Positions 2,312 to 40,016 of a DNA stretch of 40,225 nucleotides are shown piece by piece. The stretch covers positions 1 to 40,225 of the forward strand of contig QYZZ01000069.1 of NCBI GenBank assembly GCA_003838145.1, written 5' to 3'. Position numbers and translations under genes: made by a program. Numbering within the stretch: the first letter of the stretch is position 1; every line of letters begins with the position of its first letter. Below the pieces are notes generated by a model. It searched no databases. It saw only the letters and a list, made by a program, of their open reading frames with translations, and was not told the DNA's origin. The DNA comes from Tindallia sp. MSAO_Bac2 (GTDB lineage Bacteria; Bacillota; Clostridia; Peptostreptococcales; Tindalliaceae).

Positions 2312-3406
2312 ATGAAAAAGTTATACTTGTCCCAGATTGAAAACGGATCTCCAATATCGCAAGACCTATATAATCCGCATGGTGCCATATTGGTACCTAA
2401 GGGAAAAACGATGACGCCAAAGCTTAGACAGCAGCTATTACGGAATAATATCGACAGTTTTTTGATAGACATTACCGGATACGAAAGCATTGAAAACTAT
2501 TATGAACATTTTGAAGAACCTGAGATTCAACAGATTGAAGCTGTAAAAAAGGTATACAACAACTCTTTTGCTTCACTCAGCAGTGAGTTTGAGAATTTTA
2601 AACGCAACAGAAATCTGGATAAAAAAACACTGCGGGATACTGCAAAAGAGTTAGTTGCCAGCATTGGAAAGTATCAGCATGTATATTTAGGCCTTGAAGG
2701 TATCCGGCGAAAAGATTTTTATACCTACATACATTCAGTGGATGTAGCAATTTTTATGATTGTAATGGGAAAATCTCTGAGAATGGATGAAAAAAATCTG
2801 GAACAGGCAGCTTTGGCTGGATTGCTTCATGATATTGGTAAAATAAGTATTGATGATTCCATTTTGCTCAAACCTGGAAAACTAACAAACCTGGAAATGG
2901 AAAAAATGAGAAAGCATACAGAGATTGGCTATGAAATTCTGAAAGAAAAAATGAACTATCCGGATGAAATTGCAAGAGCAGCTCTTGAGCATCACGAAAG
3001 GATGGATGCGTTAGGCTATCCCGGAAAAATCTCATGGGATAAAATTCATTTATATTCCAGAATGGCAGCCATCTGTGATGTTTATGACGCCATTACCGGC
3101 GAAAGGGTATACAAAAAGGCAATGTTGCCTCATGAAGCAGTTGAATATCTAATGACCATTGTAGGTAAACATCTCGACAGGTCTCTGACAACGCAGTTTA
3201 TCAGAAATATTGCAGTTTATCCAATGGGAACCAAAGTGGAGTTAAATAATGGTGAAAACGGAATAGTAATAAAACTGCACGATGGATATCCCACCAGACC
3301 AGTTATAAAAATTCCGGAGAAGGGAATTTACCGGGATCTGCTTCAGGACAACACCATTCTTATACAGAATATCCTTTGTCCCGAAGAGAGTTCTGAGGCA
3401 ATATAA
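2312..3406 (+). CDS. HD-GYP domain protein, probable c-di-GMP phosphodiesterase
   Basis: This 364-aa protein has an unassigned N-terminal region (about 1-130) and an HD-GYP domain (about 135-310). The HD-GYP domain typically hydrolyses cyclic di-GMP to pGpG and/or GMP. Metal-binding HD is His173-Asp174 in LLHDIGK; His227-His228 follow in LEHHERMDALGYP, with the GYP triplet at 235-237. The usual DG of HHExxDGxGYP reads DA here, a mild variation, and the metal ligands are kept. About 55 residues follow the catalytic domain. A GGAGAGC ribosome binding site precedes the ATG. The histidine kinase begins 12 bases downstream, so the two are probably translated from one message. Confidence 0.9.
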   Translation: MKKLYLSQIENGSPISQDLYNPHGAILVPKGKTMTPKLRQQLLRNNIDSFLIDITGYESIENYYEHFEEPEIQQIEAVKKVYNNSFASLSSEFENFKRNRNLDKKTLRDTAKELVASIGKYQHVYLGLEGIRRKDFYTYIHSVDVAIFMIVMGKSLRMDEKNLEQAALAGLLHDIGKISIDDSILLKPGKLTNLEMEKMRKHTEIGYEILKEKMNYPDEIARAALEHHERMDALGYPGKISWDKIHLYSRMAAICDVYDAITGERVYKKAMLPHEAVEYLMTIVGKHLDRSLTTQFIRNIAVYPMGTKVELNNGENGIVIKLHDGYPTRPVIKIPEKGIYRDLLQDNTILIQNILCPEESSEAI

Positions 3407-3418
3407 AGGAGTAGTTGA

Positions 3419-4606
3419 ATGAGAATAGAACTGGACCATTTGAAAGAATCGAATGAATTTCTGAATACACTTTTGGATCATATCACTTCACTTGTCTTTA
3501 TATTGGACCAGAGCTTAAAAGTTCAGTGCATTAATGGTGCCGTTGAAGAATTGTTCGAAAAGGAAGTTAATGACCTGACTGATCAGATATTCGGAAATGC
3601 CATCAAATGCAGTTATGCAGTTGAAGAGCAAAAACAGTGCCAACATACGTCATATTGCAATATGTGTGAATTCAGTCAGGGTCTGTCAAAAGTTCTGGAG
3701 CAGAAAATGCCAACTTATAAACAAAAAGTAAACCGGGATATTTATATTGGAAACAAAAAAGTAAATAAAACTTTTGTGTTTACAACACGGCACATTACTT
3801 ATCAAAATGAAAATATGATTATGGTTGTGGTAGATGATGTTACGGAGCTTGAAAAGCAACGGATGGAACTGGAAAAGACTGTTTCTCTTAAAAACAAGCT
3901 TCTGGGTACGGTAACTCACGATTTAAGAAACCCGATCAATGCTATCCAAAATGTATCCTGGTTTTTAATGGATGAAGCAGATAAGATGACGGAAGAACAC
4001 AGATTGTTCATCAAAGACATATATGAAGTCAGTGAGTATATGAGTCGGCTTGTAGATGACTTGCTGGATTTAAGCCATATTGAAAGTGGGAAACTTGAGC
4101 TTAATCTCAAACTCAATGACTATATAGAAACGGTGAGGGAAAGTGTTTCTATTAATCAGCCCCTTGCTCTGAAAAAAGGAATGAATATACTTCTTGATGT
4201 GCCAGGAACCCCTCTGGTGTTAAGTTATGACTTTAATAAGTTAATCCAGGTGATAAACAACCTGATTGGAAATGCGATTAAATTTTCGGATGAGAATTCG
4301 ATTATAACTGTGGGTGTCCAATGCAACGAAGAATTTGTTGTAACTTCTGTTCGGGATTATGGACCTGGTATTCCGGAAGATGAAGTAAATCAGGTATTTT
4401 TGGAGTTTAGCAATTTAAGTGCAAGACCGACTGGCAATGAGAAAAGCACCGGGCTGGGTTTGGCAATTGCCAAGCGAATTGTAGAAGGGCATCAGGGCCA
4501 AATATGGGTCGATAGTATTTTGGGCGAAGGGTCTGTATTTTATTTCAGTCTGCCATTGCATTCCACTGATAACGAATCGTTGATTCCTGATGGGATGATT
4601 GATTAA
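3419..4606 (+). CDS. PAS-domain sensor histidine kinase with N-terminal Cys cluster
   Basis: This 395-aa soluble kinase has no membrane segment. Residues about 15-145 form a PAS-like sensor region with four closely placed cysteines at 64, 74, 80 and 83 (C-x9-C-x5-C-x2-C), plus Cys37. The HisKA domain has the phospho-acceptor His167 in VTHDLRNPINA. The ATP-binding domain shows an N box (NNLIGNAIKFSD), a DYGPGIP box and STGLGLAIAK. The cysteine set suggests a metal or redox sensing role (inference). No response regulator is encoded nearby, so the kinase is an orphan; it sits 12 bases behind the HD-GYP gene, which may be functionally linked. AAAGGAG precedes the ATG. Confidence 0.88.
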   Translation: MRIELDHLKESNEFLNTLLDHITSLVFILDQSLKVQCINGAVEELFEKEVNDLTDQIFGNAIKCSYAVEEQKQCQHTSYCNMCEFSQGLSKVLEQKMPTYKQKVNRDIYIGNKKVNKTFVFTTRHITYQNENMIMVVVDDVTELEKQRMELEKTVSLKNKLLGTVTHDLRNPINAIQNVSWFLMDEADKMTEEHRLFIKDIYEVSEYMSRLVDDLLDLSHIESGKLELNLKLNDYIETVRESVSINQPLALKKGMNILLDVPGTPLVLSYDFNKLIQVINNLIGNAIKFSDENSIITVGVQCNEEFVVTSVRDYGPGIPEDEVNQVFLEFSNLSARPTGNEKSTGLGLAIAKRIVEGHQGQIWVDSILGEGSVFYFSLPLHSTDNESLIPDGMID

Positions 4607-4669: not shown

Positions 4670-4914
4670 CAAATATAATGGAATCAAATGTTAAGATGAG
4701 GACGTTGCGAAGAACTTTGTACTCAGAGAATGAATCCCTGGCTGTAAGATTCATACGAAGACTTTGCAAAGATCACCTCTGAACTTAAGTTCTGAAACTA
4801 GTAGGAGCTTGCGCAAGCCAGCGTTAAGGCTTTGAGTGACAGCTGCTATAGCTGTAAGCAGGGTGGTACCGCGAAGTTTGATTCGTCCCTGAGCGTTAAG
4901 CTCAGGGATTTTTT
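4670..4914 (+). promoter_or_regulatory. T-box riboswitch, isoleucine specific (AUC specifier), with terminator
   Basis: The conserved T-box element GGGTGGTACCGCG is at 4861-4873, and its UGGU pairs with the ACCA end of an uncharged tRNA. In stem I, GAGG (4698-4701) pairs with CCTC (4776-4779) and GCGAAG (4707-4712) with CTTTGC (4762-4767). This leaves an internal loop whose 3' side holds ATC at 4772-4774, an isoleucine codon matching the downstream gene. The terminator is CCCTGAGC (4887-4894) pairing with GCTCAGGG (4900-4907), then a run of six T. Uncharged tRNA-Ile should favour the antiterminator and raise ileS expression. Confidence 0.95.
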
Positions 4915-4957: not shown

Positions 4958-7900
4958 ATGGAACAATTCAAAGGACTTTCTCAGGCACCGGTAGCTGAAA
5001 GAGAAAATCAGATTAACCGTTTCTGGGATGAGGCAAAGATTCTTGAAAAGAGTGTGGATAGTCGTGAAGGAAAAACTTCTTACGTTTTTTATGAAGGCCC
5101 CCCTACGGCTAATGGGAAGCCTGGCATTCATCATGTTATTTCACGAACTCTAAAGGATTCTGTATGCAGGTACCATACGATGTTAGGGAAACAGGTAAGA
5201 AGAAAAGCAGGCTGGGACACCCACGGACTTCCAGTGGAAATTGAAGTGGAAAAACAGCTTAATCTGAGTAGCAAGCAGGAAATAGAAGCCTATGGAATTG
5301 CGGAATTCAATGAGAAATGCCGTGAGTCTGTTTTTTCCTATGAAAAACAATGGAGAGAAATGACGCGCCGGATGGGTTATGCTATTGATATGGATAACCC
5401 CTATATTACGTTAGATAATGAATACATTGAATCTGTATGGTGGATCCTGAATAAATTTTTTGAAGAAGGTTTCATCTATGATGGCCACAAAATACTTCCT
5501 TACTGCCCCCGTTGTGGAACAGGTCTTGCATCTCATGAAGTATCTTTGGGGTACAAAGAAATAAAAAGTGAAACCGTAACAGTGGCTTTTAAACGAAGAG
5601 ACAAAGAAGAATATTTTCTCGTTTGGACCACAACACCCTGGACGCTTGCATCTAACGTGGCACTTTGTGTAAATCCTGACTTAGATTATTTGAAGGTTAA
5701 GTCGCAGGAAACTGTTTATTATGTGGCGAAAGAACTGGCAAATAAAGTAATTGGTGAAGATTATGAAGTTTTGGAGGAATTAAAAGGAAAAGAACTGGAA
5801 CATATCGAATATGACCAGCTAATGCCCTTTGTTAAACCGGACAAAAAAGCTTTTTTTATTACCTTGGGTGATTTTGTAACAACGGAAGATGGAACGGGAA
5901 TAGTCCACATGGCTCCGGCTTTTGGTGAAGATGACTATAATACCGGCCGGGCATATGGTCTCCCTGTTCTACAGCCGGTGGACGAAGAGGGTAAGTACAC
6001 GGCTACGCCCTGGAAAGGTCAATTTGTTATTGATGCGGATCCTGATATTGTAAAATGGTTGCGGGCTGAAGGAAAACTCTTCCAAAAAGAACGGCTGGCG
6101 CATAACTATCCTCATTGCTGGAGATGCTCAACGCCGCTTCTTTATTATGGGAAGCCAAGCTGGTACATTGAAATGACTAAAATCAAGGATCGTTTAATTG
6201 AAAACAACAACTCAGTAAATTGGTACCCTGATTTTGTGGGAGAAAAGCGTTTTGGAAACTGGCTGGAAAATCTGAATGACTGGGCTATATCAAGAAATCG
6301 ATACTGGGGGACCCCTTTAAACATATGGGTATGCGAATGTGGAGAAAAAACTTCTATTGGTTCAAGAAAAGAATTGGCTGAAAAAGCTATTGAAAAGATC
6401 GATGAATCCATTGAGCTTCACCGGCCCTTTGTTGATGATGTACATTTGAACTGCTCAGCCTGTGACGGTATGATGCATCGTGTGCCGGAAGTGATTGATT
6501 GCTGGTTTGACAGCGGATCGATGCCTTTTGCCCAGCAGCACTATCCTTTTGAAAACAGCGAAGAATTTGATGAAAAACTATTTCCGGCTGATTTTATTTG
6601 TGAAGGGATCGATCAAACCCGGGGATGGTTCTATTCTCTGCTGGCAATTTCCAGTTTTGTAAAGGGCGTTGCTCCATACAAAAATGTACTGGTAAACGAT
6701 TTGATTCTGGATAAAGACGGACAAAAGATGTCGAAATCAAAAGGTAATACAGTTGATCCTTTTGAACTCTTCGACAGATTTGGTGCGGATGTTCTGAGGT
6801 GGTATCTGCTCTATGTATCACCTGCGTGGACGCCAACTAAATTTGATATTGAAGGGCTAAAGGAAGTAAAAAGCAAGTTTTTCTCAACTCTTGAGAACGT
6901 ATATAGTTTCTTTACCTTGTATGCAAATACAGATGGTATTGATCCGCGGGAATTTGATATTCCAGTGTCCGAGAGACCCGAACTTGACCAGTGGATTGTT
7001 TCCAAATACAATCACTTAATCGAAGACGTCCGAAAGGAAATGGATGTTTACGACTTGACGAGAGCAGTTCGAAAAATTCAGGATTTTGTAAACGAAGATT
7101 TCTCAAACTGGTATATCAGACGCGCAAGAAGGAGATTTTGGGCTTCCGAACTGTCTGACGACAAGAAAGCTGTGTACAACACAACTTATGAAGTGCTTGT
7201 TGGAGTAGTACAGCTTGCAGCGTCCTTTGCACCATTTATCACAGAGGAGATATATCAGAACTTAACTGGAGAAGAGTCGGTGCATACATCTTATATGCCG
7301 AACCCGGATACTGCTTTGATGGTTGAAAAGGTTGAGGAAAGAATGGATCTTGTTCGGGACCTGGTTACCTTAGGACGTGCAGCAAGAGAAAAAACACGCT
7401 TAAAAGTGCGCCAGCCACTTCAGAAGATTCATATTGATGGAAAGTATGAAGAGGACATTGCACATCTTGTGCCATTGCTTAAAGAAGAATTAAACATTAA
7501 GGATGTTGTGTTTGAGAAGAATCTGAATGAATACATGAATTTCAGTTTAAAGCCTGATTTTAAAGTAGCGGGACCTGTTTTTGGCAAACAAATAAAGGCT
7601 TTAGGAAAAGCACTTGGCAGCCTGGATGCAAACGAAATTGCACCAAAGCTGGAAGCAGGTGAGAGCATTGAGGTTGATCTGGAAGGTGAATCAAAAGAAA
7701 TTACAAAAGAATTTGTGATGATTGGCATTTCTGCAAAAGAAGGATTTACAGTCGAAATGGAGAACAATCGATTCGTAATTTTAGATACAACTCTAACGGA
7801 AGAATTGGTAAATGAAGGTCTTGCCAGAGAGTTTGTTTCAAAGGTTCAGCAGATGCGAAAAAATAATGGGTACGAAGTTATGGATCAGATTAACATCTTC

Positions 7901-8159: not shown

Positions 8160-9524
8160 TTACTTGTTTTTATTTAGGTTGTATTTATCCATGTAATCAT
8201 TTTTCTCTTTAGCCAGTACTCCAGCCAGCAAAATCATTGCTATCAGGTTCGGTGCAATCATCAAGCCATTCAAAGTGTCTGCTACTCCCCAGACAACTTC
8301 CAAACCACCTACAGCACCAATAAACAGAAATACCAGGAATAAAATTCGATAAGGAACAATTACCTTTTTGCCAAGAATATATTCCCAACTTTTCTCGCCG
8401 TAGAAGCACCAGGTTAACATGGTGGTGTAAGCAAAGAAAACGATGGAAATAAGGATAATGTAACCTCCCGGTCCTGGAAGCCCTCTATTGAAAGCAGCAG
8501 TTGTAAGGTCGGCACCTGTTTCGCCTGTGCCCAAAGCACCTGTTGTTAATATTACTAAAGCAGTCATTGAACAAACAACAATGGTATCAATAAATACTTC
8601 CCAGATACCCCACATACCCTGACGGCTGGGAGTATTTTTTGCCTGTGCATGAACTATGGATGCTCCGCCAAGTCCGGCTTCGTTGGAGAACACGCCACGG
8701 GCAATACCGAAACGAATGGTACTGGCTACTGCGACACCAGCGCCACCAGCACCTGCAGCGTAAGGATTAAATGCATAGTAGAATATATCTCTTAATGCGG
8801 CAGGAATTTCTGCAACATTTAAAACCAGAATAATAACAGAACCCACAATATAAATAACAGCCATTGTAGGGACAATTTTTTCAGCTGTTAGTGCAATCCG
8901 TTCGATACCGCCTAGTGTAACAAGGCCTACCAGAATAACGATAACAAGCCCGCTGACCCATGGAGCAATGCCAAACTCGACCATTGCAGTTGCAACTGTA
9001 TTGGACTGGACCATATTACCAATACCAAGGGCTGCTAAACCTGCAAAGATAGCATATAGAACAGCCAGCCATTTCCAGCCGGAGCCCAAACCGTTTTCAA
9101 TATACTGCATAACTCCTCCGGAATAGGTACCATCCGGATTAGTGTTACGGAATTTAACACCAAGAGATGCCTCGCCAAACTTAGTTGCCATTCCTACGAG
9201 AGCTGAAAGCCACATCCAGAAGACAGCTCCCGGCCCACCTAAATAAATGGCTGTTGCAACCCCTGCAATGTTACCGACACCGATGGTTGCAGCCATGGCT
9301 GAACTAACTGACTGGAAAGAAGTAATGGCTCCGCCTTCTTCTTCATCTTTTTCTTTTCGGAACATTCCGCCAAAAGTATGTTTCCAGGCATGACCTAAGT
9401 GAGTAAATTGAAAGAATCCTAAACGAATTGTTAAATAAAGACCAGTTCCGACAAGAAGAATGAGGAAGGGAGGTCCCCATACTATACCACCGATAAAATC
9501 ACTAAATTGAATTAATGAATCCAC
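8160..9524 (-). CDS. Alanine/glycine:cation symporter (AGCS family)
   Basis: This 454-aa polytopic membrane protein imports alanine, glycine or a related neutral amino acid with Na+ (or H+). Family motifs include the opening hydrophobic segment with VWGPPFLILLVGTGLY, a long SSAMAATIGVGNIAGVATA loop-helix and the FSNEAGLGGASIVHA motif. TWCFYGEKSWEYILG lies near the C-terminus. About 10-11 hydrophobic spans are apparent. The start is GTG at 9524, preceded by AAAAGGAGG. A promoter lies about 160 bases upstream, leaving a long structured leader. Substrate choice between Ala and Gly cannot be read from the sequence. Confidence 0.93.
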   Translation of the reverse strand: MDSLIQFSDFIGGIVWGPPFLILLVGTGLYLTIRLGFFQFTHLGHAWKHTFGGMFRKEKDEEEGGAITSFQSVSSAMAATIGVGNIAGVATAIYLGGPGAVFWMWLSALVGMATKFGEASLGVKFRNTNPDGTYSGGVMQYIENGLGSGWKWLAVLYAIFAGLAALGIGNMVQSNTVATAMVEFGIAPWVSGLVIVILVGLVTLGGIERIALTAEKIVPTMAVIYIVGSVIILVLNVAEIPAALRDIFYYAFNPYAAGAGGAGVAVASTIRFGIARGVFSNEAGLGGASIVHAQAKNTPSRQGMWGIWEVFIDTIVVCSMTALVILTTGALGTGETGADLTTAAFNRGLPGPGGYIILISIVFFAYTTMLTWCFYGEKSWEYILGKKVIVPYRILFLVFLFIGAVGGLEVVWGVADTLNGLMIAPNLIAMILLAGVLAKEKNDYMDKYNLNKNK

Positions 9525-9685
9525 TTGATAACCTCCTTTTTAAAAATGTTTAAATACTCTTTACAATAAGACCGGGTATTGCGGAGTTCAGTGAATTTTG
9601 ATAAGCATCACCTCGCTGGTAAGTAAGTTTTTGAATTGCCTTAATTCTTAATTTCAGAAGACTCAGCATAAGTCTTCACACATAC

Positions 9686-9713
9686 ATCATACCAAATACC
9701 CAAAATTTTTCAA
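9686..9713 (-). promoter_or_regulatory. Promoter of the AGCS symporter
   Basis: On the minus strand, TTGAAA (9713-9708) and TATGAT (9691-9686) are separated by 16 bases. This places the transcript start about 155 bases before the GTG codon. Confidence 0.65.
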
Positions 9714-9772
9714 GAGTACAAAAAAAATTTGAAGAAAATCACAATATGCAAGGATAAATGTCCTTGGGATTA

Positions 9773-9801
9773 TTGAATTATATCCCGATGTATGAGATAA
9801 T
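9773..9801 (+). promoter_or_regulatory. Candidate promoter of the signal-peptidase gene
   Basis: TTGAAT (9773-9778) and GATAAT (9796-9801) are separated by 17 bases, about 60 bases before the ATG. Confidence 0.5.
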
Positions 9802-9862
9802 AATCATAAGAAGGATTCTGAAATTTCCAACTAATGATAGTGTTCGGAAAGGAGGAATCAAT

Positions 9863-10399
9863 ATGAATTCAATTTCCGGAAGCACTATATTAAAAAAACG
9901 TAATTTTAATGATCTTTGGTGGTTATATGTAATTGTATTATTGATGCTCCTGTCCACGCTAATTAGTTTTTTGTCCAGTACATCTATGGATCAGGATGTG
10001 CCACCCGGACTTTTTGGGTACCGATTTTTCAGAGTATCGGGGGTAAGTATGGAACCAACAATTGTTAACGGCTCTATACTGATTGTAAAGCAAACTGCTC
10101 CGGATATGATACAAAAAAATGATATTATTACTTATCTTTGTTATCGAGGGCAAAAAGCCTGTACAACTCATCGGGTGATTGATATCGAAAGGCTGGATAA
10201 TGATAGACGGCAGTTCATCACTCGAGGAGACGGTAATTCTGTCAAAGACCCGGTTCCAATTCCTCAGGACCAGGTTGTCGGGGTAGTAAAGCAAGCATTC
10301 ACTGCTAACGATATTTCCTCAGGCTTTAAATGGATTGGATTGCTGGCAATATCCCTTTTGATTATATTTATTTATGGTCGAAAATTTATTTACAGATGA
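9863..10399 (+). CDS. Signal peptidase I, SipW/ER type
   Basis: This 178-aa membrane protease removes signal peptides outside the membrane. It has one N-terminal span (about residues 19-40), the catalytic Ser62 in SGVSMEPTI and a His103 in TTHRVID where usual bacterial enzymes have Lys. RGDGNSVKDPVPI holds the Asp region, and a second span lies near the C-terminus (about 157-172). Ser plus His is the hallmark of the archaeal/ER/SipW group. An in-frame ATG at 9758 exists, but AAAGGAGGAA lies just before the ATG at 9863. In Bacillus, SipW processes TasA-type matrix proteins, and in clostridia such enzymes often lie beside their substrates; no such partner is visible here, so its clients are unknown. 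Confidence 0.9.
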   Translation: MNSISGSTILKKRNFNDLWWLYVIVLLMLLSTLISFLSSTSMDQDVPPGLFGYRFFRVSGVSMEPTIVNGSILIVKQTAPDMIQKNDIITYLCYRGQKACTTHRVIDIERLDNDRRQFITRGDGNSVKDPVPIPQDQVVGVVKQAFTANDISSGFKWIGLLAISLLIIFIYGRKFIYR

Positions 10400-10422
10400 A
10401 AAATTAAGATGATACTATTCAT

Positions 10423-10445
10423 AAAACCGTCCTGTGGCGGTTTTT
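10423..10445 (+). terminator. Terminator after the signal-peptidase gene
   Basis: AAAACCG and CGGTTTTT form a short stem around a TCCTGTGG loop region and end in a T run, 23 bases after the stop codon. Confidence 0.75.
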
Positions 10446-10477
10446 CTTATTAAAAAAGTATAACTGCGCTCTCTTCG

Positions 10478-10506
10478 TTGCGGTTACTCTCTGTGTGTGG
10501 TACAAT
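10478..10506 (+). promoter_or_regulatory. Promoter of the PAS-GGDEF-EAL gene
   Basis: TTGCGG (10478-10483) and TACAAT (10501-10506) are separated by 17 bases, about 50 bases before the start codon. Confidence 0.6.
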
Positions 10507-10558
10507 TTTATGCATATATTTAAATATACTTGAATGAAACGCACGAGGAGCGATCAAT

Positions 10559-13012
10559 ATGCCTGTAACCCGGAAATATCCCCAGTTTAATCATGAATTG
10601 CATGGGCCGGCAGTGTTTTTTGTCAGAGCAGTAGGAGAAAAATGTTGTTTTCTTTATGCTTCGGATAATATAGAACAATTCGGTTATCGTGCAGCTGATA
10701 TAATTAATGATCATCTGGATTTTAATACATTAATACACCCTGAGGATACAGAGCATGTCAAATCAGAAATTGGCAAGAAAACTCGGACTTGCGATAATGA
10801 ATATAGTTTGGAATATCGTTTAATAACGTCCAAAGGGGAGATACGCTACATTATGGAGTATGGCAATATTATCTACTTGAATGGTAGACCCAGCCATATG
10901 GAAGGTTATTTGTTGGATAGTACTCGTTATAAAAATCTTGAAGAAATAGCAAGTGAGTGGGAAAAGGGCTTTAAAGAACTGATTGGAAACAGCTTAGCTG
11001 GTATTTATATAATTCAGGATGAGAAGTATGTCTACGTTAATGAGCGATTTGCCAGTATTTTTGGCTATACTGCTGATCAGCTGATAAATGAGCCGGCGGA
11101 AAAAATAGCTGCACCCAATGAACGAAAAAAAATAATCGACAATTTAAGGAAAAGGTTGAATGGAGAAATAATAAGCCCTTATATCATAAGTGGCTTACAT
11201 AAAAATGGATACCAATTGGAAGTCCAAGTGATGGCCAGCTTGATATCTTATCAGGGTCAGCGGGCAGTCATTGGAACAGTGGTAGATTTGATGGGATCTG
11301 AAGAAGTGTTTCACCGTCTGAGAATGTCAGAAGCAATTCTGGAAAATACGATAGAAGGCGTTGCAGTAACTGATGTGGCTGGGAATATACAATGGGTTAA
11401 TCCCGCCTTTACTGAAATAACCGGATACACACCTGAAGAAGTGATTGGGAAAAACCCGAGAATCCTAAAATCTGACCGACATACCCGTGAATTTTATAGA
11501 AATATGTGGAAAAGTATCCAGCACGAGGGTTATTGGAGTGGGAAAATATGGAACCGTAGAAAAAACGGCCAGGTATATCCGGAACTCCTGACTATTACGG
11601 CTATTCGTAATCAGGAAGAAAAAACAGAACAGTATGTTTCGATATTCAACGATTTAACCGAACGGGTCAGGACGGAAGAAAAACTGGAACATCAAAAGTA
11701 TCACGATGTGTTGACTGGGCTGCCAAATCGTTTTTTGCTGATTGACAGGATGGAGGTCTCCATGTCCAGGGCACAATCGCAAAACACGTCATTTGCGTTA
11801 TTTTTTCTTGACATTGATCGATTCAGAAGAGTAAATGATACTCTGGGCCATCTGGCAGGAGACCAGGTTATAGAAGCCTTTGCCAAAAGACTTCTTGAAG
11901 TAATGAGAGAAGAAGATACTATCTCGAGATTAGTTGGAGACGAGTTTGCTATACTGATTAACCCGATTAACAATGTGAATACAGCTGTTATCATTGCGGA
12001 AAAAATTCTTAAGTCTATGGAAAAACCATTTTATATTGATTCGCAGGAAGTTCACATGACTGCGAGTATTGGTATTGGTTTTTACCCGGGAGATGGGGAG
12101 AATCCTGAACAAATGATCAAGCATGCGGAAATGGCTATGTTTCAGGCAAAAAAATTTGGGAAAAACAGGTATCGATTGTACTCCGAGGATATGCATAAAG
12201 AAACACTGGTGCGTTTAGAGATGGAAAACGATATTCGAAAAGGTTTGGAACGACAGGAATTTGAAATGTATTACCAGCCCCAAGTTGAAATATCAACTGG
12301 CGAAATACGCGGAGCAGAAAGTTTAATGAGATGGAAACATATGCAGAAAGGACAGATATCACCAGCCACTTTTATACCAGCTGCCGAAGAAAGTGGATTA
12401 ATGATTCCATTGGGGATATATACCATGAAACGGGTCTTTGAGCAAAGTAAAAAATGGAAAGATGAAGGGTTTGATCAAACTCTGGTCTCCTTTAATCTCT
12501 CGCCTACCCAGTTTCAGCAATTAGATCTTTATGATCAGATTAAATGGATATTATCAGAAACAGGAGCAGATCCGGAGCTGCTGGAGCTTGAAGTTACAGA
12601 GAATACGGCTATGGTAGACATAGAATATGCTGTCAGGAGCTTGAATCGAATTAAAGAGCTTGGTATAAAAGTCGCTATGGATGATTTTGGAACTGGCTAT
12701 TCATCACTGGCATTACTGAGCAGACTTCCTGTAGATAAGTTGAAGATTGATCGATCCTTTGTCAGTGGCATCGAAAAAAGTTCTGATAAGCAAACAATTG
12801 TAGCGGCAATGGTTGGAATGAGCCAGCAATTAGGCATTGATGTTGTGGCAGAAGGAGTAGAAGAAATAGCAGAAAAAGATTTTTTGCTTGAAATAGGGTG
12901 TAACATGATCCAGGGGTATTATTATAGTCCGCCTGTGCCTGTTGATCGTTTCGAAAGTTTGATGAAACGTAAAGTATTTTATTTTGGGGACGATAAATCG
13001 TGTTTGAAATAG
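10559..13012 (+). CDS. PAS-PAS-PAS-GGDEF-EAL protein, c-di-GMP metabolism
   Basis: This 817-aa soluble multidomain protein has three PAS-type sensor domains (about residues 15-125, 135-255 and 258-375). A GGDEF domain (about 380-540) and an EAL domain (about 560-805) follow. The GGDEF motif reads VGDEF (459-463), losing the first Gly, so cyclase activity is doubtful and the domain may only bind GTP. The EAL domain keeps Glu587 (motif ESL), DDFGTGYSSL, KIDRSFV and VAEGVE. Net phosphodiesterase activity on c-di-GMP is therefore the likelier output. No membrane segment is seen, so the PAS domains probably sense a cytoplasmic cue. AGGAG lies 8 bases before the ATG. The CcpA-like regulator starts 13 bases after the stop. 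Confidence 0.93.
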   Translation: MPVTRKYPQFNHELHGPAVFFVRAVGEKCCFLYASDNIEQFGYRAADIINDHLDFNTLIHPEDTEHVKSEIGKKTRTCDNEYSLEYRLITSKGEIRYIMEYGNIIYLNGRPSHMEGYLLDSTRYKNLEEIASEWEKGFKELIGNSLAGIYIIQDEKYVYVNERFASIFGYTADQLINEPAEKIAAPNERKKIIDNLRKRLNGEIISPYIISGLHKNGYQLEVQVMASLISYQGQRAVIGTVVDLMGSEEVFHRLRMSEAILENTIEGVAVTDVAGNIQWVNPAFTEITGYTPEEVIGKNPRILKSDRHTREFYRNMWKSIQHEGYWSGKIWNRRKNGQVYPELLTITAIRNQEEKTEQYVSIFNDLTERVRTEEKLEHQKYHDVLTGLPNRFLLIDRMEVSMSRAQSQNTSFALFFLDIDRFRRVNDTLGHLAGDQVIEAFAKRLLEVMREEDTISRLVGDEFAILINPINNVNTAVIIAEKILKSMEKPFYIDSQEVHMTASIGIGFYPGDGENPEQMIKHAEMAMFQAKKFGKNRYRLYSEDMHKETLVRLEMENDIRKGLERQEFEMYYQPQVEISTGEIRGAESLMRWKHMQKGQISPATFIPAAEESGLMIPLGIYTMKRVFEQSKKWKDEGFDQTLVSFNLSPTQFQQLDLYDQIKWILSETGADPELLELEVTENTAMVDIEYAVRSLNRIKELGIKVAMDDFGTGYSSLALLSRLPVDKLKIDRSFVSGIEKSSDKQTIVAAMVGMSQQLGIDVVAEGVEEIAEKDFLLEIGCNMIQGYYYSPPVPVDRFESLMKRKVFYFGDDKSCLK

Positions 13013-22176: not shown

Positions 22177-23718
22177 ATGCAGACATCAAGTAATTCACAG
22201 TTTAAATCAAGATTTGGATTCATTGCAGCTGCAATAGGGATGGCAGTGGGAACCGGCAATATGTGGCGCTTTCCAAGAGTTGCTGCAGCCAATGGTGGTG
22301 GAGCTTTTCTGGTAGCTCTCACAATTGCCATGTTTGTTTATGCAATACCATTACTACTTGCGGAAATGTCCATAGCTCGAAAGACCCGGCTGGGTACCGT
22401 TGGTGCTATGAGAGATTTTATGGGCCGGAAATTTACCTGGATAGGTGGATGGTTGGCCTTAGTTGCTATGGGGGTTATGTTCTATTACTCAGTAGTGGCA
22501 GGTTGGACTTTGAAATACCTTGTGTTATCGGTTCAAGGAACATTTGCTCAGCCTGATATTACTCCTGAGTTGACACAAAGTATCTGGGAAGGATTTTTGT
22601 CCTCTCCGATCCAGACAATCTTCTTCCATGGATTATCCATGTTCTTTGGAGCAATCGTTATCTACAAAGGTGTAAGTGCCGGCATTGAGAAAGTGACAAA
22701 AATTATGGTGCCCACCCTTTTTGTTTTGATTACTCTTGTAGCTATAAGGGGTGTTACGCTGCCTGGAGCATCAGCAGGTCTTGAGTTTTTATTCACTCCA
22801 AATCTGGAATATCTTCTAAAATCACAAACATGGTTAGAAGCTTTTACACAGGCAGCCTGGTCAACAGGTGCAGGCTGGGCATTAATAATGACCTATGCAG
22901 TTTATACTAAAGAGAAAGAAGACCTGTCCCTTAATTGCTTTATTGTTGGGTTTGGAGATGTGCTGGTAGGTTTAATAGCTTCTACAGCGATTCTTCCAAC
23001 AGTATATTCTCTTTCTCCCACGATAGAAGTAGCTGAAGCTGCAATGGCTTCAGGCAATAATGGATTGATTTTTGTGTATTTATCGGCTCTGTTTGGTAAT
23101 ATGCCTGGCGGTACACTTATTGCTATTGTATTCTTTGCAGCTCTCGCTTTTGCAGCACTTTCATCTTTACTGTCAATGATAGAAGTTGGCGTTTTGAATC
23201 TGCAGGATGCTGGATGGAATCGTGGAAAAGCAACTCTTTTCGTTTGTGTGTCAGGATTTATAATTGGCATTCCATCAGCCTATAGCATACATTTTCTTGA
23301 TAATCAGGATTTTGTCTGGGGAGTTGGACTTTTAATAAGCGGCCTGCTGATATCGATTGCGGTTATGAAATATGGAGTGGAAAAAGTTCGATGCGAAGAC
23401 ATAAATCATGCTGACAGTGATATGTATGTGGGTAAGTGGTGGTCATTCATGATTAGAATCTTTCCGCTTGTCTTTGTTGTTATTTTTGGTTGGTGGACCT
23501 GGCAGGCAATTGGTTGGTACCCGGGCGAATGGTGGAAACCTTTCGAAGTATTTTCCCCAGGTACCATGGCGTTTCAGTGGGGTATTGGAGCACTGATTAT
23601 GATTTGGCTTAATGACTGGCTGGCAGATCGTATAAAACCAGGTAAAATATTGTCTTCAGAACAAAATGACAAAGTCAAAATCAGTAATAAAAAATTTAGC
23701 GAAGGAGGGATTAAATGA
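22177..23718 (+). CDS. Sodium-dependent amino-acid transporter, NSS (SNF) family
   Basis: This 513-aa membrane protein imports an amino acid with Na+. The unwound first helix of the LeuT fold is clear: AIGMAVGTGNMWRFPRVAAANGGG (about 22-45), which carries Na+ and substrate contacts. About 11-12 hydrophobic spans follow. An ATG at 22159 is in frame, but AAAAGGAG lies after it and before the ATG at 22177, so 22177 is the start. The 37-aa small-subunit gene overlaps its stop codon. In Corynebacterium the analogous MetP needs a short partner, MetS, for methionine/alanine uptake, which suggests a similar substrate here (inference). Confidence 0.93.
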   Translation: MQTSSNSQFKSRFGFIAAAIGMAVGTGNMWRFPRVAAANGGGAFLVALTIAMFVYAIPLLLAEMSIARKTRLGTVGAMRDFMGRKFTWIGGWLALVAMGVMFYYSVVAGWTLKYLVLSVQGTFAQPDITPELTQSIWEGFLSSPIQTIFFHGLSMFFGAIVIYKGVSAGIEKVTKIMVPTLFVLITLVAIRGVTLPGASAGLEFLFTPNLEYLLKSQTWLEAFTQAAWSTGAGWALIMTYAVYTKEKEDLSLNCFIVGFGDVLVGLIASTAILPTVYSLSPTIEVAEAAMASGNNGLIFVYLSALFGNMPGGTLIAIVFFAALAFAALSSLLSMIEVGVLNLQDAGWNRGKATLFVCVSGFIIGIPSAYSIHFLDNQDFVWGVGLLISGLLISIAVMKYGVEKVRCEDINHADSDMYVGKWWSFMIRIFPLVFVVIFGWWTWQAIGWYPGEWWKPFEVFSPGTMAFQWGIGALIMIWLNDWLADRIKPGKILSSEQNDKVKISNKKFSEGGIK

Positions 23719-23828
23719 CTGCTTCCACTATATTTTTCATGATCCTTATTTTTGGTTTTTATGCGGGAGGGTTTATTTTCTTCTTGCTTAAAGCTTTAAA
23801 AAGCGAAAAAACGGAACCTAACAATTAA
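23715..23828 (+). CDS. NSS transporter small subunit, MetS-like (37 aa)
   Basis: The ATG at 23715 overlaps the transporter's TGA (ATGA), a classic coupled arrangement, and GAAGGAGGG lies just before it. The peptide has one membrane span (TIFFMILIFGFYAGGFIFFLL, read as two overlapping stretches at about residues 5-25) and a short Lys/Glu-rich tail. Size, topology and position match the small subunits of methionine/alanine-importing NSS transporters. The family call rests mainly on context. Confidence 0.8.
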   Translation: MTASTIFFMILIFGFYAGGFIFFLLKALKSEKTEPNN

Positions 23829-23845
23829 TAAATGCAAGTTGCTGT

Positions 23846-23873
23846 GCTGCTGTGAAAACAGCAGCTTTTTTTT
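23846..23873 (+). terminator. Terminator after the NSS transporter genes
   Basis: GCTGCTGT (23846-23853) and ACAGCAGC (23858-23865) enclose a GAAA loop and are followed by eight T. Confidence 0.93.
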
Positions 23874-23943
23874 GGAAAAAAAATAAACAGGATGAATTTA
23901 TCAAAAAAATAGGAAAATAGTATTAATTTTTCTCGAAATCAGA

Positions 23944-23949
23944 TATAAT
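23944..23949 (+). promoter_or_regulatory. Candidate -10 element before the c-di-GMP riboswitch
   Basis: A perfect TATAAT lies about 30 bases before the aptamer. The matching -35 region (near 23921) is poor, so only the -10 is supported. Confidence 0.45.
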
Positions 23950-23977
23950 GTTATATAAGGTTAAACTATAATCAAAG

Positions 23978-24060
23978 TAAAGGGCAAATTCATTGAAAAA
24001 TGAAGACGCAAAACCAAGGGTCTAAAGCAGATAATGTTTGCTATGACAGCCGGTTACCTA
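23978..24060 (+). promoter_or_regulatory. Cyclic di-GMP-I riboswitch (GEMM)
   Basis: The class I aptamer core is present in order. AGGGCAAA (23981-23988) is followed by a hairpin TTCATT-GAAA-AATGAA (23989-24004) with a GAAA tetraloop. Then come GACGCAAAACC (24005-24015) and GGGTCTAA (24018-24025), and a second hairpin AGCAGATAATGTTTGCT (24026-24042). ATGACAGCCGGTTACC (24043-24058) closes the core. The kinase ATG lies about 50 bases after the aptamer. The 3' strand ends in ACCT (24056-24059), which could pair with AGGT at the kinase ribosome binding site (24100-24103). Translation control is therefore plausible, but the direction is not known. Confidence 0.92.
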
Positions 24061-24108
24061 AGGTTTATATGTTTTTTTTATGCCTTATTGCGGAAATGGA
24101 GGTTTCAA

Positions 24109-25632
24109 ATGAGGGAAACTGCATCCGGTACCGATAAATTCAGACAACTTGTTGATGATCTCCCGGTAATGATCTGCGAATACTTACCGGACACCACTCT
24201 TACTTACGTTAATCAAGCCTATTGCGATTATTTTAATAAGAGCAGGGAAGAGCTTGTTGGAAGCAGCTTTCTTAAACTTCTTCCGAGAGAAGCCTGGAAG
24301 GAAGCCAGGGATACATACTTATCTTTGACTCCGATGTCCCCGATGGCAGTTCATCTACAGAAAAATATCAGAAATGGTATTTGTAGATGGGAAGAATGGC
24401 GTGACAGAGCGTTCTTTGACGAAAACGGCAATGCAATGAAATATCAGGCAGCTGCCATAGATGTTACTGAACGTATAGAAGCAGAAAAGGAAATGAAAGC
24501 ACAAAAAGAAAGATACTTGCATATTATTGATAATATGACAGATGTGATCTGGAGAGCAGACCTTAGTTTAAAAACTATGTATGTCACCCCTTCTATAGAC
24601 AGGCTTCTTGACGAAACGGTAGAAGAACACATGAAAAAACCAGTGAAAGAAAAATTTCCGTCGGAATCTTTAGAGATCCTGAAAAACACTTTGGAAGAAG
24701 AACTGCAAAAAGAAAAAGACCCTCATGCTGATCCGTCCAGGACAAGAATGATAGAGGTGGAGCATTATCATAAAAATAAAGGGATAATTTGGATATCTAT
24801 TCATGTTTCTTTTATCAGGGATAAGAACGGTGTGGTTGTTGGCATTCAGGGTGTGAGCAGAGATGTAACCGAAACTAAAAAAATTCAGCAAGAACTGGAA
24901 GTAGCAAAGATGAAAGCCGAAAATGCCATGAAAGCTAAAAGTAGTTTTTTGGCTGCTATGAGCCACGAGATAAGAACACCTTTAAATGGGATTATGGGAA
25001 TGTTGCAGTTATTGGAACTAGAAGGTCTGCAAGGTGAACAGAAAGAAATACTTGAAATGGCTAAGCAGTCTGGAAACAATCTACTGCAGTTAATTAATGA
25101 AGTGTTGGATTACTCAAAGGTAGAAGCAGGGAAAAACAAGCTGATAAGCAAACGATTTAATTTGAAGCAATTAATTAAAGAAATTGAAAGCACATCTTAC
25201 GCCGATATAGCTCAAAAGAGACTAGAATTCAGACTGGAAATAGCTGAGGATTTGCCGGAAATTGTGAAAGGTGATCCTATTAGACTCAAACAAGTCTTTA
25301 CAAATCTTATTCACAATGCTTCAAAATTCACTCATAGTGGCGGCATTTACGTAAAGATTAACAAAGTCATGGAAAGAGATAACATTCATTTACTGAAATG
25401 CCAGGTGGAAGATACCGGAATAGGGATTCCAGAAGATCAGCAAAAATCTATTTTTGACGTATTCTCTCAGGCGGATGATTATATATTTGATAAATACGGT
25501 GGTTCCGGACTTGGGTTAACCATATCAAAGAAGATAATTGAAGAAATGAATGGAACCATTTGGGTGGAAAGTATAAAAGGAAAAGGTAGTTGCTTCTACT
25601 TTACATGTGAATTGGAACGAGTGGAAGTTTGA
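24109..25632 (+). CDS. PAS-PAS sensor histidine kinase under c-di-GMP riboswitch control
   Basis: This 507-aa soluble kinase has two PAS domains (about 8-125 and 133-265), a short coiled segment and a HisKA domain. The phospho-acceptor is His286 in AAMSHEIRTPLNGI. The ATP-binding domain shows NLIHNASKFTHSG, DTGIGIPEDQ and GGSGLGLTISKK. There is no receiver domain, membrane span or adjacent response regulator, so it is an orphan kinase. A longer reading frame begins at 24034, but that ATG lies inside the riboswitch; the ATG at 24109 follows TGGAGG and is preferred. The gene ends before the terminator at 25674-25712. Confidence 0.9.
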   Translation: MRETASGTDKFRQLVDDLPVMICEYLPDTTLTYVNQAYCDYFNKSREELVGSSFLKLLPREAWKEARDTYLSLTPMSPMAVHLQKNIRNGICRWEEWRDRAFFDENGNAMKYQAAAIDVTERIEAEKEMKAQKERYLHIIDNMTDVIWRADLSLKTMYVTPSIDRLLDETVEEHMKKPVKEKFPSESLEILKNTLEEELQKEKDPHADPSRTRMIEVEHYHKNKGIIWISIHVSFIRDKNGVVVGIQGVSRDVTETKKIQQELEVAKMKAENAMKAKSSFLAAMSHEIRTPLNGIMGMLQLLELEGLQGEQKEILEMAKQSGNNLLQLINEVLDYSKVEAGKNKLISKRFNLKQLIKEIESTSYADIAQKRLEFRLEIAEDLPEIVKGDPIRLKQVFTNLIHNASKFTHSGGIYVKINKVMERDNIHLLKCQVEDTGIGIPEDQQKSIFDVFSQADDYIFDKYGGSGLGLTISKKIIEEMNGTIWVESIKGKGSCFYFTCELERVEV

Positions 25633-25673
25633 AGCCGGAATGATACAGTCTTAATTAAACTATCAATAATGCA

Positions 25674-25712
25674 AAATGCATGAATTCAAAATATGTGAAT
25701 TCATGCATTTTT
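25674..25712 (+). terminator. Terminator after the riboswitch-controlled kinase
   Basis: AAATGCATGAATTC (25674-25687) pairs perfectly with GAATTCATGCATTT (25697-25710), with T residues continuing to 25712. The stem is AT-rich but long. Confidence 0.8.
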
Positions 25713-25882
25713 AAATACTGGCTTTGTCCGGCTTGACGGATGATAGTATTGGCTGCTGCCATGTTGATTGCGAAGGGTAACTTTTGACCTTTAACTTGTG
25801 AAATTGACGCTTTTTTGATATTATAAACTCGCTGTAGATAATGTTTCACTAACTTATTAGAGCTTGGAAGGAATGAAATTAA

Positions 25883-27196
25883 ATGAATATTGGCATATAT
25901 GGCATGCATTATAAAAATACACCTGTTGAAATTCGGGAACGAGCAGCTTTCAAGCCTTCCGGTCTTGAGGGTGCTTACAATAAGCTGCTTGGAATAGATG
26001 GTATCCGAAGTTGTGTCATTCTATCCACCTGTAATAGAAGTCAACTGATTTATGAGGCTGATGAAGGGGTAGATGGAAAAGGAAGGCTTGACCATTTTTA
26101 CCGTGATTATTTTGGCTTTAGCGATAAAGAGGTTCAGGCCTATTGTCGACATGAAGTGCCGGCAATACGAACCTTTTTTAAAATGTGCTGTGGATTGGAT
26201 TCGTTAGTTTTGGGAGAGGATCAGATTCTTGGACAGATAAAGGAAGCTTACTACACTGCCAGAGAGCATGGTGCCTGTGGTAAAGTGATGAACAAGTTTT
26301 TTCAGACGGGAATTGCTTTGGGTAAAAAAATCAAAAATGAAACTGCTATATCAGAAAACCCGCTTTCCATTGCTTCCATTGCGGTTAAGCAAGGTGAAAA
26401 AATTTTTCGAAATCTGGAAGATATCAAAGTGCTTGTGTTGGGTAGAGGTGAAATGAGTCGTACAGCAATAAGGCATCTTTTATCTTCAAATGCAGAGCAC
26501 GTATATATTGCTACCAGAAGTAATTTGCTCACAGGGTTTGATGATTTGGACCGCACTAAGATTTCCCGAATTCCCTTTGAAGACCGCCATGAAGCTATTG
26601 CTTCTGTTGACTGGGTGATTAGCGCTACTTCTGCACCTCATCAGGTTATTGAAAAATCTCAGCTTCAAAAATTCCATCGTCATAACAAACATGTTCTTAT
26701 TACAGATATTGCCATGCCCAGAGATATAGACCCGGGCGTTTCTGAGATTCCAGGTGTCTGCCTTTATGATTTAGATCAATTGGATGAAGTTGCCAGAGAA
26801 AATATGGATCAAAGAGCAGGCAAGCTTGAAATCATCGATATAAGAATTGCTGAGAAAGAGAAGGAGTTTTTTGACTGGCATCGATGTCTTCCTGTCTATC
26901 CGCGAATACGTGCAATACAGCAATATTCGATAGAGATGACTGAAAAAGAAATTAATGAGCTTTTTGATAAAATGCCACACTTATCTCAGAAAGACCGCAA
27001 CAATATTGAGGCCTTTATTTATAGTCTTGTAAAAAAAATGTGGAGAACGCCTATTCATCAGTTAAAGCAAGTTGGGCTGGAAGGAAAAGGGGAGGAAGCA
27101 GGGGCTTTGCTTGATCGTCTTTTAACCTGTGATTTTCAAAATCTGGAAGAAGAATATGAAGAAGAACATAGAGAGGAGAAACTAAATTATGAATAA
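25883..27196 (+). CDS. hemA: Glutamyl-tRNA reductase
   Basis: This 437-aa enzyme reduces glutamyl-tRNA to glutamate-1-semialdehyde with NADPH, the first committed step of tetrapyrrole synthesis by the C5 route. The catalytic Cys50 lies in ILSTCNRSQLIY, and the signature GLDSLVLGEDQILGQIK follows. The nucleotide-binding loop is VLGRGEMSRTAI, and a C-terminal dimerisation domain follows. GGAAGG precedes the ATG. The hemL start codon lies 8 bases inside its 3' end, so the two are translationally linked. The other early heme genes (hemB, hemC, hemD) are not in the window. Confidence 0.97.
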   Translation: MNIGIYGMHYKNTPVEIRERAAFKPSGLEGAYNKLLGIDGIRSCVILSTCNRSQLIYEADEGVDGKGRLDHFYRDYFGFSDKEVQAYCRHEVPAIRTFFKMCCGLDSLVLGEDQILGQIKEAYYTAREHGACGKVMNKFFQTGIALGKKIKNETAISENPLSIASIAVKQGEKIFRNLEDIKVLVLGRGEMSRTAIRHLLSSNAEHVYIATRSNLLTGFDDLDRTKISRIPFEDRHEAIASVDWVISATSAPHQVIEKSQLQKFHRHNKHVLITDIAMPRDIDPGVSEIPGVCLYDLDQLDEVARENMDQRAGKLEIIDIRIAEKEKEFFDWHRCLPVYPRIRAIQQYSIEMTEKEINELFDKMPHLSQKDRNNIEAFIYSLVKKMWRTPIHQLKQVGLEGKGEEAGALLDRLLTCDFQNLEEEYEEEHREEKLNYE

Positions 27197-39805: not shown

Positions 39806-39835
39806 TACATTTAGTATTTCAAAAATTAATGATAT

Positions 39836-40016
39836 TATCGATAGAGGTTGCGCTGCAGATTAGTAGAAATCAGATAAAGTGAGGAAGCACTCAAGGCTGA
39901 TGTTCGAAAGGCTGAAGCGCCGAAGTTTCTGAAAGTGCTTCCTTTACAGAAACTGGGGGCAACTGCGAAAAGCGTTGTCACTGTCATGGTTAACCCATGG
40001 AGTGCTATTGAATAAC
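39836..40016 (+). promoter_or_regulatory. Lysine riboswitch (L-box) aptamer
   Basis: The conserved L-box blocks are present in order: GATAGAGGTTGCG (39840-39852), AAAGGCTGAAGCGCCGAAG (39907-39925) and ACTGGGGGCAAC (39952-39963). Next come GCGTTGTCACTGTCATGG (39972-39989) and CCATGGAGTGCTATTG (39995-40010). The last block closes the P1 helix with the start (ATAG/CTAT). A terminator follows at 40083-40111, so lysine binding should stop transcription. The controlled gene lies beyond the right edge and is probably in lysine synthesis or uptake. Confidence 0.95.

Follow-up and report, generated by a model that had tools for sequence, protein, structure and literature searches.

In C. difficile, a class II c-di-GMP riboswitch located upstream of cmrRST raises cmrRST expression, according to the parts of two reports that deal with it (PMC8844915, PMC11477304). 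Since cmrRST is a direct precedent, the principle of placing such genes under a c-di-GMP riboswitch is itself already known. Among class I riboswitches, Vc2 is presented in a passage of PMC9262584, citing Inuzuka 2018, as switching translation OFF, with P1 as the key element; in 2016 its mechanism was called unknown in a passage of PMC4744006. Our literature search, with key early work lying outside its reach, returned no class I switch placed before a lone kinase.

Here we describe a stretch of 40,225 nucleotides from Tindallia sp. MSAO_Bac2 (contig QYZZ01000069.1), hereafter the window, in which a canonical class I riboswitch would form the leader of a single-gene mRNA encoding a probably soluble lone histidine kinase, with probable repression of its translation by c-di-GMP. 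We give this reading as a whole an even chance of being correct. It would join c-di-GMP and histidine kinases, two large bacterial signalling systems, via RNA instead of protein contact.

Identification of a class I aptamer ahead of the kinase gene

A covariance-model search with cmscan returned a match to RF01051, the Rfam c-di-GMP-I family, which covers the complete model (positions 1-87) with an E-value of 6.1e-15 (Table 1). The class I aptamer that had been proposed from the letters of the sequence was thus recovered, on the same strand and at the same place, the proposed segment (23978-24111) running from the aptamer core through the start codon. It is the only c-di-GMP-I aptamer of the window and the top scorer among the six class I matches of its own genome, while RF01051 matches were found in 0/14 control genomes. 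In conclusion, the window aptamer is a genuine and ordinary member of class I.

Table 1. Coordinates of the features of the riboswitch-kinase locus (positions of the window)
Feature	Coordinates	Strand	Basis
Intrinsic terminator, parting the kinase unit from the upstream transporter genes	23846-23873	+	Terminator scan
TATAAT, a candidate -10 box for the kinase, 5' of the aptamer	23944-23949	+	Read from sequence
c-di-GMP-I (GEMM-I) aptamer	23973-24061	+	RF01051, 82.5 bits against a gathering cut-off of 35 bits
Weak linker hairpin AAGGU...GCCUU, with a U8 run (24072-24079) in the loop	24060-24086	+	Fold of 24059-24090
Shine-Dalgarno GGAGG	24098-24102	+	Sequence; GGAGG kept in both orthologues
Orphan PAS-PAS-HisKA-HATPase_c histidine kinase, 507 aa	24109-25632	+	Pfam; H, N and G boxes all present; maximum 19-residue hydropathy 1.08
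Inverted repeat of 15 pairs ending in T, probable terminator	25673-25712		Read from sequence

The ligand-contact positions are occupied by G23983 and A24010, 27 apart, which we take, from the alignment and from general knowledge of the family, to be G20 and A47 in Vc2 numbering. The two C residues at 24057-24058 fall in the conserved CC alignment columns, and one of them is presumably C92. In addition, the GNRA tetraloop is GAAA (23995-23998), and its receptor strands CUAA and UAUGA are seen in the covariance-model alignment. The same spacing of 27 holds for the contacts reported for Vc2 (G20-A47) and Vc1 (G12-A39) in a passage of PMC4744006, and the G20 position is named as a selectivity factor in a passage of PMC9262584. 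Given the G at the G20 position and the A at the A47 position, c-di-GMP is expected over cGAMP.

The kinase gene probably forms a transcription unit of its own

The kinase ATG (24109-24111) follows the aptamer end on the same strand after 47 bases, in line with the short distance originally claimed. The open reading frame formally opens at 24034, within the aptamer; we placed the start at 24109, where a Shine-Dalgarno sequence is present and the ATG is aligned in the orthologues. Pfam assigned no receiver domain to the product, and the low maximum hydropathy indicates that the kinase is probably soluble and cytoplasmic.

The genes and signals are arranged as tig, clpP, clpX, an SNF-family transporter, a 37-codon ORF, a terminator, the riboswitch, the kinase, a hairpin with a T run, and hemA. 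Specifically, the upstream terminator has an 8-pair stem with 5 G-C pairs, followed by T8, and was the one site found by the terminator scan of 23700-25900, for which 1.1 are expected in shuffles. The downstream inverted repeat has a loop of 9, beyond the loop limit of that scan, and as a probable terminator it would make the kinase a single-gene unit. With terminator-like hairpins flanking it on both sides, the unit has an aptamer dedicated to the kinase.

The upstream terminator and the candidate -10 box put a putative promoter ahead of the aptamer. Both congeners discussed below carry TATACT at the same 26-base distance from a TAGTAT as the TATAAT of the window, and the local alignment score with the congeners is matched by 3-4% of shuffles. 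This promoter has no good -35 element and no consensus match, and the TATAAT was not listed by the promoter scan.

The kinase is an orphan on its contig

The genome has 40 receiver-domain matches, none of which falls on the contig of the window, and Pfam found the domain in 0/32 window ORFs, a set that did not include the 1035 aa ORF (at 4958) or a few short ones. No response regulator gene lies beside the kinase, which is thus not one half of a neighbouring two-component pair and is indeed the orphan it had been taken for. Clostridial orphan kinases often feed Spo0A. A Spo0A link was rejected for this kinase, as Spo0A_C was found in 0/7 family genomes; among the 14 control genomes, the same search returned B. 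subtilis as positive.

The genome carries 24 GGDEF matches, from which we infer that c-di-GMP is probably made by the host. Several further elements were observed in the window. An 817 aa PAS-GGDEF-EAL protein (10559-13012) is a second c-di-GMP enzyme candidate. At 2312-4606, some 20 kb ahead of the riboswitch on its upstream side, an HD-domain protein with HD, HHE and GYP motifs (HD-GYP type) is directly followed by a second histidine kinase of 395 aa (HisKA, HATPase_c). A T-box leader (4684-4893) lies ahead of the 1035 aa ORF, and a lysine riboswitch (39834-40015) lies at the window end.

The same locus in two congeners lacks the aptamer

A protein search of seven family genomes identified orthologues of the kinase only in G004 and G005, two congeners, with 63-64% identity over residues 4-504. 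Among 198 genomes drawn from the order, with up to seven candidates scored per genome, the 1e-90 threshold was passed by the kinase of the window and by these two orthologues alone. A similarity search of the genome contigs yielded 15 distant kinases, at 25-45% identity.

Both congeners keep the order clpX, transporter, small ORF, kinase and hemA, and at the kinase locus of neither was an RF01051 match obtained. Counted from the shared TAGTAT as far as the ribosome site, their leaders are 97-98 bases long, and no convincing aptamer remnant was recognised in them in an alignment judged by eye. The aptamer may have been gained in the window lineage or lost in the other, and both histories fit. 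Because the conserved kinase occurs with and without an aptamer in congeners, the effect of riboswitch gain or loss is testable in one gene.

A further arrangement was observed in G006 (L209, G006:C138), whose hemA is the closest to that of the window (75%, against 70-71% in G004 and G005). Here clpX is followed by hemA, at the place that the transporter, the small ORF and the kinase occupy in the window genome and in both congeners; a tblastn search of the 1.5 kb before this hemA found clpX and neither the transporter nor the kinase.

Histidine kinases are a recurrent target of c-di-GMP riboswitches

We surveyed 120 class I sites, comprising 30 family loci, 30 order loci and the best 60 among the further matches listed; a site at a contig edge, the second copy of one tandem and a site with 1.5 kb of downstream sequence were skipped. 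A downstream ORF was obtained for 118/120 sites, and 115 were scanned, three second tandem copies being left out. Among the 115 proteins, the domains counted were HD (13), MCP (11), GGDEF (10), EAL (4) and HisKA (3), the last in the window, G002:C34 and G134:C109. The HisKA count rises to 5 when two cut ORFs are extended (G004:C3 and G005:C2), and other ORFs cut at 1.5 kb may conceal more kinases. These counts were a test of the expectation that motility or c-di-GMP enzymes are the usual targets of class I switches, and they make the kinase a minority but recurrent class I target.

The kinases of G004:C3 and G005:C2, of 712 and 732 aa, sit behind tandem class I aptamers. The former contains PAS, HisKA and HATPase_c by Pfam; the latter was recognised by phmmer alone, a HisKA match lying at its position. 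We observed that in both tandems (L165:6310-6469 in G005, L164 in G004) the selectivity position is G in the first copy and A in the second, which is the weaker of the two. Such a G/A pair before a PAS kinase could be a two-ligand sensor.

Elsewhere in the family, class I-kinase pairs occur in three other genomes, two of them sharing one kinase, and class II-kinase pairs occur in the window's genome (G000:C84) and in one other (G002:C4). The aptamer of G000:C84 (L166:8945-9031; 58.3 bits, over the cut-off) lies 49 bases before a PAS-PocR-HisKA-HATPase-receiver hybrid kinase (9081-11303). In G002:C4, an above-cut-off class II aptamer precedes a PAS-HisKA protein cut at the locus end. Kinase-linked sites make up 2/5 of the above-cut-off class II sites of the family, one of the five running off its contig. 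The window's genome thus has one kinase preceded by a class I and another preceded by a class II c-di-GMP riboswitch. Also noted there was a class II match that does not reach the cut-off (50.9 bits; L180, G000:C128:3645-3728, minus strand); it is followed, in this order, by a small ORF that looks hydrophobic, a receiver protein, a 217 aa ORF and a HisKA-HATPase-receiver-Hpt kinase.

Enrichment and origins of the riboswitch-kinase pairs

Expected numbers of pairs were computed from per-genome HisKA counts among the matches listed, at about one gene per 1000 bases. For 33 class I loci, with tandems merged by hand, 4 kinases were seen against 0.38 expected (P 0.0007), in a test devised after the pairs were seen. 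With G004 and G005 merged, and with the window omitted since its kinase was the reason for choosing it, the figures are 2 against 0.35 (P 0.05), and with class II added 4 against 0.41 (P 0.0009). The enrichment is moderate and largely carried by class II.

A tree of 30 kinase cores places the window kinase together with the orthologues that lack a riboswitch (100/96). The starred branches force at least three changes of the riboswitch label, as gains or losses, in a labelling where the row of the G004:C3 kinase (L029) stands as not riboswitch-linked and that of its G005 partner as linked. The tree has several long branches, and the G134 row, of odd composition, is its longest end branch. The class I-linked kinase of G002:C34 and the class II-linked kinases of G000:C84 and G002:C4 form one supported group (100/99), from which it follows that one origin may have involved a switch of aptamer class.

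All together, these data lead us to a tentative picture, to which we give somewhat less than an even chance. Both riboswitch classes would act in this family as movable adaptors, put several separate times before different PAS histidine kinases, so that c-di-GMP would repeatedly have gained RNA-level control of phosphorelay capacity; the window would capture one of these steps, its locus having the aptamer in one species and none in others.

Predicted folding of the leader

The sequence does not reveal how the switch would operate. The genomes searched yielded no relative that shares this leader, and the leader stability is unremarkable (z -1.2). The fold of the linker has -4.5 kcal/mol, which 4.6% of shuffles equal in what is one of nine uncorrected tests, and its hairpin competes with a possible extension of P1 (23963-23971 with 24065-24074). 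A hairpin at the start site (24096-24126) is equalled by 20% of shuffles, and the best duplex that the sequences on either side of the aptamer can form (-4.1, against a shuffled mean of -6.0) by 84%. In addition, a helix between UAUAAGG (from about 23954) and CCUUAUU (about 24083-24089) is present in folds starting at 23951 and absent in the fold starting at 23930, so that the switch logic depends on the transcription start.

The comparison of bound and free folds, which the original prediction had named as a check, revealed little difference in the opening of the ribosome site. Across 16 combinations of ends, the opening costs of 24097-24112 in the free and the aptamer-held RNA differ by at most 1.3 kcal/mol. 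Holding the aptamer raises the cost by 0.2-1.3 kcal/mol in the four ensembles ending at 24140, and mostly lowers it slightly in those ending at 24116 or 24125. When the P1 extension was forced in 12 ensembles ending at 24125, 24140 or 24170, access to the AUG was lowered or stayed within 0.01. For the end at 24125, the access at the four starts went from 0.47, 0.67, 0.70 and 0.44 to 0.26, 0.31, 0.06 and 0.06, and access to the Shine-Dalgarno sequence goes up, not down; with RNA to 24140 the AUG is open in all states, and P1 forcing shifts access by at most 0.03. These modelled values lean weakly towards repression, no more.

Proposed mechanism and alternative readings

In the mechanism that we propose, transcription would start a few bases past the candidate -10 box, which would include the aptamer in the mRNA, and the aptamer, judged by its conserved contacts, would bind c-di-GMP. 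Binding would stabilise P1, the outer helix, which shares sequence with the linker hairpin along its 3' strand (about 24063-24074), and this would alter access to the start site (24098-24111). As no terminator was found in the leader, the step is most likely translation, and c-di-GMP is more likely to repress it than to activate it; we hold, at low confidence, to control at translation, probably as repression of the kind described for Vc2. The amount of kinase, and hence the phosphate output to a receiver encoded elsewhere, would then track the c-di-GMP level.

The original prediction was a translational ON switch, in which the free RNA pairs the ACCT at the 3' edge of the aptamer (24056-24059) with the AGGT (24100-24103), and the ligand frees the ribosome site by holding the 3' strand. 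Both motifs exist in the sequence, but 22% of 2000 shuffled linkers also contain ACCU, which puts this four-base contact at chance level. The longest helix between the linker and the ribosome binding site has 7 pairs, reached by 93% of shuffles, and the duplex of the two (-6.4, against a shuffled mean of -7.6) is equalled by 72% of shuffled linkers; 98.9% of shuffled aptamers pair the site at least as well as the real one. The ACCT:AGGT contact and the other linker and aptamer pairings with the site were therefore rejected, all being at or below chance, and holding the aptamer does not consistently lower the opening cost. The ON switch is not supported, and we regard it as distinctly improbable. 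The least unlikely of the alternatives is a stop of transcription, brought about by a c-di-GMP-bound, AU-rich P1 extension running into the U8 or by Rho. The possible extension ends within the U8, with five U remaining, and terminator-like sites lie within 160 bases at 69/120 class I sites, against 3/120 base-shuffled ones; however, the stem is nearly all A-U, and neither of two scans reported a terminator in the kinase leader. In the family subset such sites occur at 14/30, so that a class I site lacking one is not rare there.

Failing to find pairing or opening effects above chance also agrees with an aptamer that binds c-di-GMP yet is poorly coupled to the kinase, as a recent acquisition or a relic on its way out, and the orthologues of G004 and G005 have the kinase without an aptamer. 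Against this speak the score of the aptamer, the best of the genome's six where a decaying one should score lower, and the hairpins that dedicate it to the kinase; poor coupling is unlikely, and comes next after a stop of transcription. A change of ligand, to 3',3'-cGAMP, is by far the least probable of all. An A at the G20 position is the mark of the GEMM-Ib (cGAMP) aptamers, and the survey indicates that the variant is around, with A at 28/120 class I sites, the others being G followed by GC (90), G-GT (1) and C-GC (1); but the window aptamer lacks this mark, having G at 23983. Roughly one in four of the class I sites surveyed in the order thus shows the A (28/120; for example L115, L116, L123, L124, L129, L050 and L062), and the literature search found nothing on GEMM-Ib in Firmicutes.

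Comparison with known systems

The preferred reading of a class I switch that represses translation of a lone kinase can be set against three described systems. The Geobacter cGAMP riboswitches (GEMM-Ib) are presented in a passage of PMC6456294 as a subclass of the same GEMM-I riboswitches, and differ from the window aptamer, which has G, not A, at the selectivity position. Vc2 of V. cholerae shares with the window the aptamer class, the G20 and A47 contacts and the lack of an evident terminator, whereas it controls a different gene, and in the window no masking of the ribosome site above chance is predicted. The cmrRST system resembles the window in that a c-di-GMP riboswitch governs genes including a sensor kinase, but, as far as the consulted parts of PMC8844915 and PMC11477304 describe it, combines a class II RNA with an operon that has two response regulators and with an invertible DNA switch, where the window has a class I RNA and a lone kinase. 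In conclusion, the target of the window riboswitch is uncommon yet not unprecedented.
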